Part shown: one piece after another, positions 14,410 to 18,462 of the stretch
Position numbering within the stretch: position 1 is the first letter of the stretch
Layout of the letters: every line of letters starts with the position of its first letter
Assembly (NCBI GenBank): GCA_022827405.1
Contig: JAJDTA010000002.1
Location: 1 to 43,134 of the forward strand
Length of the DNA: 43,134 nucleotides
Direction of reading: 5' to 3'
DNA from: Acidimicrobiia bacterium
Lineage (GTDB): Bacteria > Actinomycetota > Acidimicrobiia > Acidimicrobiales > Bin134
Notes under the pieces: model-generated
Seen by the model: the letters and a program-made list of their open reading frames with translations, nothing else
Databases searched by the model: none
What the model was told of the DNA's origin: nothing
Translations under genes and position numbers: made by a program

Positions 14410-14432
14410 GGTAGCGTCCAAGCGGCGCTACC
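14410..14432. terminator. hairpin between convergent genes
   Basis: GGTAGCG (14410-14416) pairs perfectly with CGCTACC (14426-14432) around a 9-nt loop. It lies downstream of the VOC gene and overlaps the TAG stop of the minus-strand gene ending at 14428. There is no U-run, so it would be a weak or factor-assisted terminator. Confidence 0.4.
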
Positions 14433-15468
14433 AAGTACTCGCCATCTCCTGGAGAGAGGAAACGTCCAATCCTCGGTCGTGGCACCACCACCAGGCATGG
14501 CTGCGACAAGCGGCGTCGGTCAGATCGTAAGCGTCGGTGGCTTGCTTCAGGTGGTGGACGGAGAGAAACGCCTCGGTGTGGGCATAGACGATCACACCGA
14601 GGTTCCAGCGGTCTTGATCGGCGCTGGCCCACTCCCAGGCATGGGCATAGGTCGCTGTTGCAAGATCCCTCGCCGCGGGAATCACCGTCTCATTCCAATC
14701 GCGTAGAGCCGCAGCCACCTGATCGGTCTCCGCAAGGGTTGGGTCGGGGACATTGGGGTTGTCGCGGGCGGAAAGGTAAGAGTGCAGGTTGGCGGTGTAC
14801 TGCTCCTTACCTAACAGAGCGGACTCAAGGGCAGTGTTCAAAGCACGACGGGCTGAGGCCAGCGCTGGGGGCGCGTCGGGAGGCGGCCATAACACTGGGA
14901 CCGCAGAAGCATGGGCCAATCCGAGGCCGTGCGAGCTGTAGGCAGAAGCATGGTGGGCAAACTCCATTACCGCGTGGCTGGCGAAGTGCAGGCCTGAGGG
15001 CCAGGGTGGCCCAGATTCACAGGATTCAGACAACCGGATGTTGTGGTCGTACAAAATCTCGTCTGGCGCTTCGGGCATGTCGGGGTCGTTGGCGCATTCG
15101 TCAAGAGCCAGATCCCACAAGACTGGGTATGCGCTGCGGCACAGTTCTTCGGGTTCGTAGGAGAATGCCAATCGGCCCACCATCTCCCCCAGCAATTCCC
15201 CGGCCAGGGCCACGCCGAAGTCATCGTCCGTCGATCCCGTCTCAAGACGGCGGGCATTCTGCGGGTCGCCTATCAGAGGACGGTTGTCACACGCTTGGAC
15301 AGCCAATGCCGGCATCTTGTCGCAGGCGTAGGCAACCTTGTCGGGCCACTCTGTTCGGCTGTAGTCGGCAAATGAAGCCGAGGCGGCTTCCTTCGCAGCC
15401 TCCACCAACCATCTGGGCCGAGGTGGCGAGTCAAATGTTGGGAGTATTCTCGGTGCGGTTTTATCCAT
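14428..15468 (-). CDS. uncharacterised protein co-regulated with the R-M operon
   Basis: 346 aa; I do not recognise a family. It is mostly helical by composition and rich in Ala, Asp, Glu and Trp. It has a Pro-rich N-terminus (TFDSPPRPRWLV), a CDKMPALAVQACDNRPL segment, and a Trp/His-rich C-terminal third (YAHAWEWAS, CRSHAWWWCHDRG). No signal peptide or membrane span. The ATG at 15468 is supported by a TAGGGT -10 box exactly 6 nt upstream. Further upstream lies a 16-bp element identical to one before the methyltransferase gene, so it is probably expressed with the restriction-modification system. Less GC-rich than surrounding genes, suggesting joint acquisition. Confidence 0.7.
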   Translation of the reverse strand: MDKTAPRILPTFDSPPRPRWLVEAAKEAASASFADYSRTEWPDKVAYACDKMPALAVQACDNRPLIGDPQNARRLETGSTDDDFGVALAGELLGEMVGRLAFSYEPEELCRSAYPVLWDLALDECANDPDMPEAPDEILYDHNIRLSESCESGPPWPSGLHFASHAVMEFAHHASAYSSHGLGLAHASAVPVLWPPPDAPPALASARRALNTALESALLGKEQYTANLHSYLSARDNPNVPDPTLAETDQVAAALRDWNETVIPAARDLATATYAHAWEWASADQDRWNLGVIVYAHTEAFLSVHHLKQATDAYDLTDAACRSHAWWWCHDRGLDVSSLQEMASTW

Positions 15469-15474
15469 GCCCCC

Positions 15475-15480
15475 ACCCTA
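15475..15480 (-). promoter_or_regulatory. -10 box (TAGGGT) of the unknown gene
   Basis: Minus-strand TAGGGT ends 6 nt before ATG 15468. The 16-bp shared element begins 7 nt upstream of it, at the position of a -35 plus spacer. Confidence 0.55.
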
Positions 15481-15487
15481 AGCAGGA

Positions 15488-15503
15488 GGTATGACAGTTT
15501 CTG
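15488..15503 (-). repeat. 16-bp shared promoter element, copy 1
   Basis: Minus strand CAGAAACTGTCATACC. An identical copy lies at 17536-17551 upstream of the methyltransferase gene. Relative to the predicted leaderless start it covers about -35 to -20, so it would contact sigma factor or a regulator. The two copies also flank the methyltransferase-nuclease pair, so a duplication made during insertion is the alternative. Confidence 0.65.
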
Positions 15504-15531
15504 CCTTCACTGATCTAGCCGACCAACGAAC

Positions 15532-16422
15532 TCACAAAGGCCGCAAGCGGGATACCAGCGCCAATTCGAAGTGCTCTCGGCTGACGGTTTCGGCGGCTTG
15601 GAGGCGTTTGTTGGAGTCTTCCAGGGTGAGCACCTCCCAATGGTCTTGAGCTAGCCGCCAGATACCTGCGGCCGCGCGTTCCAGACGGGTGACGAGCCAG
15701 ATGATGTCGCCTTCGTTGATGTCTTGGCTGGGTCGATCGCTGGTGCCGCCGACAGCGTTGAAGAATGGGCGGTCCACCGCGACGGCGAGCTTGGCACCCC
15801 AGCGACGAAGTGTTGGTGCTTTTATCTCCAGTTGTGGCATCAGGCGCTTGGCGCTTGAGGAACGCCAGTCGGGACGGCGGACCTCCGATGGGTAGGGAGG
15901 TGGTTCGTGGGTGTCGTCTCGCAGTGCTTCGAATTCGCTGGTCATCCCCCTGCCGGAGAAATAGACGGCTTGGATCTCCAATCCATGCCATCTCAAGTTC
16001 CCGCCCTGTACGTGGGCAACGATCATGTCGATCTTGCCAGCAGGCTTGTTCGTCTCTGTGCTCCGCATGAAAGGGACTTCTCTAGCCACTTGGGTCTCTC
16101 CAAGGGGAAATCCAGCAACCTCGGCCAGCCACTTGTTCACGAGGTTCTCCTCTTCGAAGCGGCGTGGACAGGTGATAACTGGCTCGTCCACTGACATGCC
16201 AAGGCGATGGCTTTTGCCTTCCGTGTAGCGCTGGATAGAGCAGACGCCACCCTTCTTCGAGCATGGTGGATGGTTGGGTTGGAAGGGGCAGACAGGCGGT
16301 TCAGCGCCAGCCTCGCCCAGCGCGTGCTCAGCGAAGGTCGCTCGTTGGGTTGCGTTAAGTGATGTGAAGTCCCGCCCGTACCATTCGGCTATCCCGTATC
16401 GGGTTTTCGGTTCATCGGGCAT
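15532..16422 (-). CDS. NotI-like type II restriction endonuclease
   Basis: 296 aa. Four cysteines, C45 (CPF), C54, C61 (GVCSI) and C85 (TCPRRF), match the Fe(Cys)4 site peculiar to NotI. The catalytic core is D132 (GKIDMIV) with E149-x-Q151 in HGLEIQAVYFSG, equivalent to the D/ExQ version of the PD-(D/E)XK site in NotI, where the sequence is very similar (GVLEIQTMDFHG). NotI cuts GCGGCCGC, but the partner here is an adenine methyltransferase, so the target must differ. The gene starts 15 nt after the methyltransferase stop and is presumably cotranscribed. No ribosome site is evident, which may keep its expression below that of the methyltransferase. Confidence 0.82.
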   Translation of the reverse strand: MPDEPKTRYGIAEWYGRDFTSLNATQRATFAEHALGEAGAEPPVCPFQPNHPPCSKKGGVCSIQRYTEGKSHRLGMSVDEPVITCPRRFEEENLVNKWLAEVAGFPLGETQVAREVPFMRSTETNKPAGKIDMIVAHVQGGNLRWHGLEIQAVYFSGRGMTSEFEALRDDTHEPPPYPSEVRRPDWRSSSAKRLMPQLEIKAPTLRRWGAKLAVAVDRPFFNAVGGTSDRPSQDINEGDIIWLVTRLERAAAGIWRLAQDHWEVLTLEDSNKRLQAAETVSREHFELALVSRLRPL

Positions 16423-16437
16423 CGGGAGGACCGTCAG

Positions 16438-17517
16438 TTACTTGAAGACCGCCCGTCGGGTGATGACGAGTTCGGAGATGTGGGCGTGATGAGTGTTCTT
16501 CATAACTACTTCAACGGCGTGGAAACCGTATTCTGCGAGGAGTTCGGCGATCTCCGGGGATCGGTCGTAGGTCATCAGAAAGTCCACTGGGGTTTGCGCC
16601 AGGATCTTGAAGAGTCGTCGGTGGTCTATCTGGCTGTGGCTGTAGAGACGCCTGCCAGCTCGTTTGCCGCCAGCAGTGTACGGAGGATCAATGAAGGCGA
16701 CTGTACCGGGAGCCTCGGCAATGACCTCCAAGAGATCTAGCCCATCGGCTTCACAGAAGTTGATCTGCGGCGCGTGGGCTTCGATGTTTCGCAATCGTTG
16801 GATGATGGTGTCGGGATACCAACGAGATGCGAGACCCTTGTTGTTTTCCCCGGCTTTTGTCAAGGCAGCTCCGGGGGCGAGGATGCCGCCGCGACGGGTT
16901 CGGTTGAGGACCAAGGTGCGGAACCCGTGTTCGAGCAACTCTCGGGGGGCTTGGTTTGCCAGGGCCGATACAGATTCGCGTGTCGGTTCGAACTCAGAAA
17001 CGAGGTGACACAACTCGGCGTTGTGGCGCAGCGCGGCGTGCCAGAACGCAGCCACATCGTGGTCCAGTTCGGCCATGAAGCACTGTTCGACCAAGCTTTC
17101 GCACACGGCCGTGAGAGCAACTATGCCTCCGCCGCAGAACGGCTCGATGAGCGTCCTTGGTCTGGGCTGTAAGGGCGAGAGCCAAGCCCGTATGTGGGGA
17201 ATGAGCCAGGTCTTTCCGCCTGGGTACCGCAGTGGTGAGCGCTGAGGTACCGAGGCAACATTGACAGCCGGGATAGGCGAGGTAGGGAAGCCAGGGCCGT
17301 AGTCAGGCACCGACGATTCGGTCCCGGTTGGCTCTCTTTGCGCCATCATGGCGTTCGCGGCCTTGGACGAGTCGACCTGCGCCTTTGCACTGCTAACCAG
17401 CATGTCACGAAGGCGATCTTCATCGGTGGACCCTTCAGCAGCATGGTGTGTGCTGCCACGACCATTCGGTGCCATCGCTGGAATCTGCATTTGATCGATC
17501 CTTGGCCTCTTCTTCAT
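16438..17517 (-). CDS. D12-class N6-adenine DNA methyltransferase
   Basis: 359 aa. RYPGGK (97-102) is the SAM-binding motif I-equivalent of Dam-type enzymes, EPFCGGG (125-131) the next SAM-contacting loop, and DPPY (277-280) the catalytic motif IV. Spacing is that of the D12 class (Dam, M.DpnII-A). A nonconserved N-terminal extension of about 90 residues is unusual. It should protect the host target of the adjacent nuclease. ATG 17517 is chosen over an in-frame start at 17589 because a TACTCT -10 box sits 6 nt upstream and the shared 16-bp element sits behind it, which would otherwise be inside the coding region. Confidence 0.88.
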   Translation of the reverse strand: MKKRPRIDQMQIPAMAPNGRGSTHHAAEGSTDEDRLRDMLVSSAKAQVDSSKAANAMMAQREPTGTESSVPDYGPGFPTSPIPAVNVASVPQRSPLRYPGGKTWLIPHIRAWLSPLQPRPRTLIEPFCGGGIVALTAVCESLVEQCFMAELDHDVAAFWHAALRHNAELCHLVSEFEPTRESVSALANQAPRELLEHGFRTLVLNRTRRGGILAPGAALTKAGENNKGLASRWYPDTIIQRLRNIEAHAPQINFCEADGLDLLEVIAEAPGTVAFIDPPYTAGGKRAGRRLYSHSQIDHRRLFKILAQTPVDFLMTYDRSPEIAELLAEYGFHAVEVVMKNTHHAHISELVITRRAVFK

Positions 17518-17523
17518 CGTCCG

Positions 17524-17529
17524 AGAGTA
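17524..17529 (-). promoter_or_regulatory. -10 box (TACTCT) of methyltransferase gene
   Basis: Minus-strand TACTCT ends 6 nt before ATG 17517. The geometry with the 16-bp element copies that of the gene starting at 15468, with 6 instead of 7 nt between element and -10. Confidence 0.5.
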
Positions 17530-17535
17530 TGGATG

Positions 17536-17551
17536 GGTATGACAGTTTCTG
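17536..17551 (-). repeat. 16-bp shared promoter element, copy 2
   Basis: Identical to 15488-15503 (minus strand CAGAAACTGTCATACC), placed about 20 nt upstream of the methyltransferase start codon. The flanking bases of the two copies diverge immediately, so the identity is confined to the element. Confidence 0.65.
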
Positions 17552-17661
17552 GTGGGGGTGCTGTTCCTGAGCAGTCGAAGAGGTGGCATTGCCGTGGCTA
17601 GTGGGCCCTAGGCTCTGCCCGCAATTGAAGCTGGGTTCTGGATCGCGAGACGAGGAGACAC

Positions 17662-18462
17662 ATGGCAGATACGCCGGAGTACCTGATCGATGCGGTTGAA
17701 GCGGCCATCGAGCCGTTGCGCAATAGCTCGATGGATGGGGAGCCGGAGGTGATTGACTGGAAGTCGCCGGTGCCTTTCTATGGCGACGCTGCCAACGCGA
17801 AGGTGGCGTCGGTCGCCCTGAATCCCAAAGGCGCTGATGAGAGGCTTACCGACTTGGAGTCTCTAGGCATCCGGAGTTGGGAAGCTGCCAACCGGGACCA
17901 CTATGAAGAAATCGCAGCATCGTGTCAGCGGTAATTCTTGCATCAGCCTGAGTTGAGCCGTCCTGACCCCTGGATGACGTGGTTCGGCCACCCTGACAAG
18001 CTTCTTGGCAAGATCGTGGACGGAGCGTCCTTCAAGGCGGGCACTGCATGCCATATCGATTTGGTGCCCTGGCCTACCTACAAGGTGTGGGCTCAAGTAC
18101 CGTGGCAGACGCAGGAAATGCTGCTTGGACTAGGGGGGCGCGCTGTGACCGCGATGCTGCGCGGAATGCCAGTTGAACTCTTGTGGCTAAACGGAAGAAG
18201 AGTTGTAGGGGGATTCCAGGATCTTGTTGGCAAGCCTCTCGTCGAGGAGCGGGTACCAGATCTGGACCTGGTTTCTCGGAGCGGCAGGAGGAGCAGGGGT
18301 TTCGCCTGGTTTGGAGCCATCGATGAGATCCGCGGAGTCCCGTTGGGTCGCTCGATCAGGGTGTTGGGATGGAACTGGAATCTGCCTTCGTCGCCAGGAG
18401 CCAATGGGAAAGTCGATGAATTCGCGGAATGGGCTAGGAACAAATTGAAGACGGTGTGGTAA
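17662..18462 (+). pseudogene. uracil-DNA-glycosylase-like gene interrupted by in-frame TAA
   Basis: Two frames in the same register, 17662-17934 and 17935-18462, are separated only by TAA (17932-17934). Joined they give 265 residues plus the stop. The first contains VALNPKGADERL, reminiscent of the N-P loop of UDG-fold enzymes. The second has WMTWFGHP, then CHIDLVPWPTYKVW and LWLNGRRVV. The local reading CQR-stop-F suggests that a Tyr codon (TAT/TAC) became TAA. ATG 17662 has an upstream GAGGAG. Family assignment is tentative. It diverges from the methyltransferase gene and may once have been part of the island. Either one nonsense mutation or a base error explains it. Confidence 0.6.

Follow-up and report, generated by a model that had tools for sequence, protein, structure and literature searches.

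A RecA-NDp-type promoter probably ties a NotI-family restriction-modification operon and an adjacent orphan gene to a LexA-independent damage regulon in a genus of Acidimicrobiia

A predicted restriction-modification (R-M) operon and a neighbouring gene for a 346-residue protein lie on the minus strand of a 43,134-nucleotide (nt) stretch of Acidimicrobiia bacterium DNA (assembly GCA_022827405.1, contig JAJDTA010000002.1, positions 1 to 43,134; the window hereafter), and both start behind the same 16-nt element, CAGAAACTGTCATACC. What reads this element, and does possession of it make the 346-residue protein a part of the defence system? An initial annotation had suggested a shared regulator or sigma factor, and had named the protein a candidate third component of that system. 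We find that the element is very probably a genus-specific form of the RecA-NDp promoter, which would place both the operon, with its D12-class methyltransferase and NotI-family nuclease, and the 346-residue gene in a LexA-independent damage regulon. The features concerned are the following:

14428-15468, minus strand: gene for the 346-residue protein, a genus-restricted orphan under purifying selection (no family match; 6/22 family genomes; ratio of nonsynonymous to synonymous substitution rates, dN/dS, 0.13-0.23)
15475-15480, minus strand: -10 box TAGGGT, 6 nt before the ATG at 15468; predicted leaderless start, from the sequence and from relatives
15488-15503, minus strand: 16-mer copy 1, with core AACTGTCA at 15492-15499, in the promoter of the 346-residue gene (window and assembly search; core in 5/5 genomes with an intact gene, our own included)
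15532-16422, minus strand: second gene of the operon, for a predicted NotI-family restriction endonuclease of 296 residues (PF12183, E 9.8e-44)
16438-17517, minus strand: gene for a predicted D12-class (Dam-like) DNA adenine methyltransferase of 359 residues, from 17517 (PF02086, E 1.1e-12; start kept in 8/9 genomes)
17524-17529, minus strand: -10 box TACTCT, 6 nt before the methyltransferase ATG; predicted leaderless start, from the sequence and from relatives
17536-17551, minus strand: 16-mer copy 2, with core AACTGTCA at 17540-17547, in the promoter of the R-M operon (window and assembly search; core in 9/9 methyltransferase genomes, our own included)

One element in two promoters

The two exact copies of CAGAAACTGTCATACC in the window are 2048 bp apart, and no third was found there at up to three mismatches; 100 shuffles of the window gave a mean of 0.16 matches, with at least two in 1/100. 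Across the assembly (3.77 Mb in 237 contigs, 95.67% complete) the same two were the only exact copies, each in a promoter position, and the reversed control gave 0; the initial annotation, which had counted exactly two and proposed the genome-wide search, was correct for the window and also for the whole assembly. The geometry is likewise as it described: on the same strand, copy 1 is followed by 7 nt, TAGGGT, 6 nt and the ATG of the 346-residue open reading frame (ORF) at 15468, and copy 2 by 6 nt, TACTCT, 6 nt and the methyltransferase ATG at 17517.

Identical 16-mers flanking an operon at this distance would also fit a relic of duplication or recombination around the R-M genes, a short direct repeat with no regulatory meaning. 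The locus was compared in a family set of 22 genomes, our own included, all under a single genus label, and its relatives were collected by protein homology without use of the motif; three of them, in a named collection, are metagenome-assembled genomes labelled Acidimicrobiia bacterium, Candidatus Poriferisocius aerobius and uncultured Acidimicrobiales bacterium. The core AACTGTCA and the -10 box are kept in 14/14 promoters from nine genomes, namely those of the methyltransferase in 9/9 (a count that omits weaker matches at other places in these genomes, of 24-33% identity in G009, G013, G015, G018 and G020, and an 87-residue fragment in G019) and of the intact 346-residue gene in 5/5. Y-N-C-C follows the core in 13/14, with TAnnnT then at 10 or 11 nt, and an ATG lies 6 nt beyond the -10 box in 13/14, the exception being the methyltransferase of G001, which has no start codon at the place where the other eight of nine keep it. 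From TGTC to TA the distance is 16 nt at the 346-residue gene in all five genomes; at the methyltransferase it is 15 nt in our genome and six others and 16 nt in G001 and G002.

The opening four letters of the 16-mer, CAGA, vary between relatives (CTGA, CCGA, CCAA, TTGA, CTGT), indicating that the identity of the two 16-mers is partly accidental, while the core and the geometry are not. This independent drift of the flanks around a constant core, spacing and -10 box, together with the presence of the box before recA at unlinked places, leaves the duplication reading with almost no probability, and we regard it as refuted by the conservation in 14/14 promoters.

The core motif precedes recA and other repair genes

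A strict search of the 22 genomes with AACTGTCANNCC-N6/7-TAnnnT returned 46 matches, the reversed control giving 1, and AACTGTCA-N10/11-TAnnnT returned 75 against 3 in six genomes, with 8 to 19 copies per genome. When any gap from 3 to 20 was allowed in four genomes (61 matches; reversed control 11), the gap was 10 or 11 in 55/61; one of the six exceptions, G020:C1:2999847, was printed at gap 3 and fits 11 too. The distance from TGTC to TA was 16 nt at 59 of the 75 sites and 15 nt at 16. A start codon 5-8 nt past the -10 box, opening a frame of at least 50 codons, was present at 40/75 sites compared with 1302/12114 background positions (10.7%) in the downstream stretches of those same sites. 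The element seemingly comes in two flavours, with CC or GG at positions 11-12.

Among recA loci of the genus with a readable start, 20/20 carry CTGTCA-N11-TAnnnT 57-71 nt upstream, as AACTGTCA in 18 and as AGCTGTCA in two; this count omits two matches, our own partial recA and a second, weak one in G021, and no recA was matched in G005. For the 75 sites, tblastn to seed proteins (named by Pfam, except HmaC by PADLOC and RecA by its own search) assigned 56 and left 19, the sites being partly orthologues in related genomes and not independent events. Genes of repair, recombination and topology account for 22/75 (RecA 5, GyrA 4, RmuC 3, 2OG-Fe(II)/AlkB-like 3, RuvC 2, YraN/UPF0102 2, UvrD 1, SbcD-like 1, PDDEXK_1 1), genes of methylation and defence for 12/75 (D12 methyltransferase 4, other N6/N4 methyltransferases 5, C5 methyltransferase 2, HmaC-like 1) and the 346-residue gene for 4/75. 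The commonest single family, at 11/75 sites (G000, which is our own genome, G009, G016, G020 and G021), is that of DUF222-HNH proteins, which we take to be of the 13E12 type; the other targets are IS1595 (2), SocA/Panacea, a DUF4357 protein, YgjP, a ComF-like protein and GlyRS (1 each). Here the labels AlkB-like, SbcD-like and ComF-like are our reading of 2OG-FeII_Oxy_2, Metallophos and Pribosyltran matches. In G022, from another family of the class, the genome's sole match lies upstream of ruvC (L215).

These targets bear on the nature of the shared regulator. Were it a defence-specific regulator or an alternative sigma factor acting at the R-M locus only, with the 346-residue protein as part of the defence system, then one could readily account for the confinement of the exact 16-mer to these two promoters in the assembly, and for the 346-residue gene adjoining the methyltransferase in 6/6 genomes. 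The conserved part is, however, just AACTGTCA and its spacing, which are common to recA, ruvC, rmuC, gyrA and others; the -10 box is a sigma-A-like TAnnnT; and three genomes have the R-M pair without the 346-residue gene. We consider this alternative improbable: a private defence element is largely refuted by the core preceding recA, ruvC and others, and an alternative sigma factor is rejected on the -10 box. Thus the earlier suggestion survives as a shared regulator and falls as a defence-specific or alternative-sigma element. It is similarly unlikely that the box serves in this lineage as an ordinary constitutive promoter element without damage regulation; GyrA, GlyRS and transposase genes carry it as well, but a number of 8 to 19 copies per genome, the recA, ruvC and repair genes among its targets and the RecA-NDp spacing all speak against this reading.

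Relation to PafBC-dependent damage promoters

The consensus given for LexA-independent damage promoters is tTGTCRgtg - 8 nt - TannnT (PMC5656591), a spacing that puts TA 16 nt from TGTC, which is also found here at the 346-residue gene and at recA; its TGTCR core is present as TGTCA in 14/14 R-M and 346-residue-gene promoters and in 20/20 recA promoters. A primer over a Streptomyces promoter named RecA-NDp by its authors reads CACTGTCAGTGG-N7-TACGGT-N6-ATG (PMC5087735), with the spacing and start-codon distance seen here. In mycobacteria the regulon includes RuvC and RecA (PMC8223512), and PafBC is described as acting with PafB on the -26 motif and PafC on sigma-A domain 4, with activation by single-stranded DNA (ssDNA) (PMC11804915).

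With the PafBC-activated RecA-NDp/P1 promoters of mycobacteria and Streptomyces, the promoters described here have in common the TGTCR core, the 16-nt distance, the sigma-A-like -10 box, a position before recA, ruvC and other repair genes, many sites with a short leader or none, and the occurrence of a pafBC-like pair in every genome examined. They differ in that the core reads AACTGTCAY, in most cases with N and CC or GG next, rather than tTGTCRgtg, that some sites have a 15-nt distance, and that an R-M operon, a genus-specific orphan and further defence genes are among the targets. The pair is a pair of adjacent WYL genes in 22/22 genomes, with a third WYL match in G018 alone. When our own pair was compared with the PafBC complex, one protein matched the PafC-named chain (7p5x, E 1.3e-21; PafBC 6sj9, E 1.1e-27) and the other the chain called 'Transcriptional regulator-like protein' in the same complexes (9fnd, E 4.4e-25; 7p5x, E 5.6e-25), which we take to be PafB.

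We propose that the element is where the activator binds the promoter, a CTGTCA box at about -26 placed 16 nt (15 at our methyltransferase) from the sigma-A-like TAnnnT; by eye, these promoters have no obvious -35 box. By homology, the box would be read by PafBC, an ssDNA-activated heterodimer of WYL-domain proteins, which would adapt the housekeeping (sigma-A) RNA polymerase to both promoters. The start codon often lies, as in both window cases, 6-7 nt past the -10 box, as in leaderless mRNA, and ssDNA arising from damage or from incoming phage or plasmid DNA could activate PafBC and so raise the output of such leaderless transcripts. Because the methyltransferase-nuclease operon and the 346-residue gene each carry their own copy, induction upon damage or exposure to ssDNA is predicted for both and would not depend on LexA. 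The benefit might be extra methylation while repair synthesis yields unmodified DNA, extra restriction during invasion, or both.

A LexA box, GAAC-N4-GTTC, was looked for and is absent from both promoters; the one exact match in the window, where 0.47 would be expected, is at 16921-16932 inside the methyltransferase gene. In G027 and G024, from other families of the class, this palindrome does occur after the element (L206, L230), which suggests that PafBC and LexA control may be combined there.

Several points weigh against assignment to the RecA-NDp class. The gtg of the consensus is replaced by tac at both window promoters and mostly by ctg at recA, although we take its lower case in the consensus of PMC5656591 to mean weaker positions, and our own methyltransferase promoter departs from the 8-nt gap to TAnnnT, with 15 rather than 16 nt. 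Across 44 further genomes of the class, matches to the AACTGTCA form show no enrichment (26, found in 12 of the genomes, compared with 37 for the control), and its exact form is therefore specific to the lineage. Our own recA promoter is unreadable, the profile having matched at positions 178-262 alone. The seed proteins were themselves taken from fetched sites, 19/75 sites have no assigned gene, and the assigned ones include GlyRS and IS1595 transposases. Recognition of the mycobacterial motif has been reported for ClgR too (PMC5656591), meaning that PafBC need not be the sole reader. The motif, its spacing, its conservation, its company of recA, ruvC and repair genes and the pafBC pair were directly observed; PafBC binding, induction, the ssDNA trigger and the benefit are predictions.

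The 346-residue protein and its neighbours

The 346-residue protein matched nothing above noise in Pfam, NCBIfam, PADLOC, PHROGs or the PDB. Its gene is intact in five of the 22 family genomes and a remnant in a sixth; in the class it was found in 2/395 genomes, our own and G020 of the same genus, these 395 being a draw from a larger group in which the presence of G001, G009 and G015 is not shown. No relatives were present in viral contigs, where 99 stretches had the pattern, or found in plasmids. By a simple pairwise counting method, dN/dS was 0.13-0.23 for this gene (10 pairs), 0.05-0.13 for a conserved stretch of 265 codons in the methyltransferase gene (36 pairs, nine genomes) and 0.07-0.14 for the intact nucleases (n=5, 10 pairs). 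The structure prediction that the initial annotation had called for was run with AlphaFold on an alignment of five close sequences, and yielded a model of low confidence (predicted local distance difference test, pLDDT, 42.6).

The locus takes several forms among the nine genomes. Methyltransferase, nuclease and 346-residue gene are all intact in G000 and G020; G001, G009 and G015 have an intact 346-residue gene and a shortened or broken nuclease; in G018 the methyltransferase is intact, and the 346-residue gene and nuclease are reduced to a fused remnant; and G002, G006 and G011 have an intact methyltransferase-nuclease pair without the 346-residue gene. In G011 the glyoxalase gene, which in the window lies beyond the 346-residue gene, ends 16 bp from the nuclease stop, so that the 346-residue gene and its promoter are cleanly absent; as the methyltransferases of G009 and G000 are the closest to that of G011 in synonymous divergence (dS), the gene was more probably lost than gained late.

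These states indicate that the 346-residue gene travels with the methyltransferase and not with nuclease function. The comparison of related islands thus had a mixed outcome for the initial annotation: where present, the gene is always beside the methyltransferase (6/6 genomes, one with a remnant), but three intact R-M pairs do without it. The case for a third component of the defence system is accordingly weak, given these pairs in G002, G006 and G011 and the retention of the gene beside a shortened or broken nuclease in G001, G009 and G015, and a joint mechanism does not follow from the common promoter, since recA, ruvC and gyrA share it.

A different role, compatible with the RecA-NDp assignment, would be that of an accessory to the methyltransferase rather than to the nuclease, such as a partner in specificity, anti-restriction or damage response. 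This is possible but doubtful. The gene accompanies the methyltransferase in all six genomes, including three in which it is intact and the nuclease is shortened or broken, and it has its own promoter and a dN/dS of 0.13-0.23; on the other hand, G002, G006 and G011 have the methyltransferase without it, the protein has no recognisable domain and a pLDDT of 42.6, and, with few genomes and a single locus, the linkage may be mere inheritance.

Other defence genes behind the element

The strict search placed type I-G genes of clustered regularly interspaced short palindromic repeats (CRISPR) systems (Cas7/GSU0053, GSU0054, Cas3-like) behind the element in G005 and G012 (L109, L110), at 29 and 40 nt from the Cas7 gene. 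In G015, a near-identical element with the start of a C5 methyltransferase occurs twice, 1.4 kb apart (G015:C46:15116 and 16555; L164, L188), and next downstream of the full methyltransferase copy is a DUF4928 protein.

We tentatively predict that a set of recA-type promoters is shared by the NotI-type R-M operon with its orphan, type I-G CRISPR effectors, HmaC and several DNA methyltransferases. The genus may have recruited PafBC as a common inducer of its immune arsenal, one switch for damage and invasion, a reading drawn from motif matches in a handful of genomes rather than from an unbiased count. WYL-domain repressors of defence systems are known (PMC9122589, PMC9122601, PMC9122588), BrxR and CapW among them. 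As there, a WYL factor would here be tied to anti-phage genes; in contrast to them, the predicted regulator is a chromosomal activator, PafBC, acting in trans. According to a 2023 paper, no WYL factor was known to regulate phage defence in Actinobacteria, and the defence-associated WYL regulators identified in this class are described as repressors (PMC10693628); the present case, if true, would be a predicted activating WYL factor for defence genes. A literature search for PafBC in Acidimicrobiia found no reports, and one for PafBC with phage and restriction-modification found, in titles and the beginnings of abstracts, no PafBC control of defence genes.

One testable DNA word would then join restriction and CRISPR to DNA repair, and, for a lineage represented here by metagenome-assembled genomes, AACTGTCA-N10/11-TAnnnT offers a handle with which to predict the damage regulon. 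A promoter in common must not, for all that, be counted as membership in one defence system.

The restriction-modification operon and its surroundings

The nuclease gene starts 15 nt past the methyltransferase stop, and this adjacency of a PF02086 methyltransferase and a PF12183 nuclease is that of a predicted Type II R-M system. The methyltransferase also matches PADLOC PD-Lambda-5_B and MTase_II and PDB entries 7m6b and 2dpm, while its score to TIGR00571 is under the family cut-off. Its ORF has an alternative opening upstream at 17589; we favour 17517, on which the relatives and the promoter position agree. Known Type II systems with a NotI-family nuclease (PF12183) have the same nuclease family and an adjacent methyltransferase; NotI's own partner methyltransferase is of another type than the D12 adenine-type partner found here, and a damage-type promoter precedes this operon. 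A scan limited to nine window ORFs of 90-383 residues found no helix-turn-helix family that could mark a C-protein.

Upstream of the methyltransferase, a divergent gene (17662-18462, plus strand) is split by an in-frame stop at 17932-17934, and neither piece has a Pfam match. Beside the R-M operon of G006 (L201:414-4449) are ORFs that resemble, by eye only, Cas9 (1040 residues) and Cas1.

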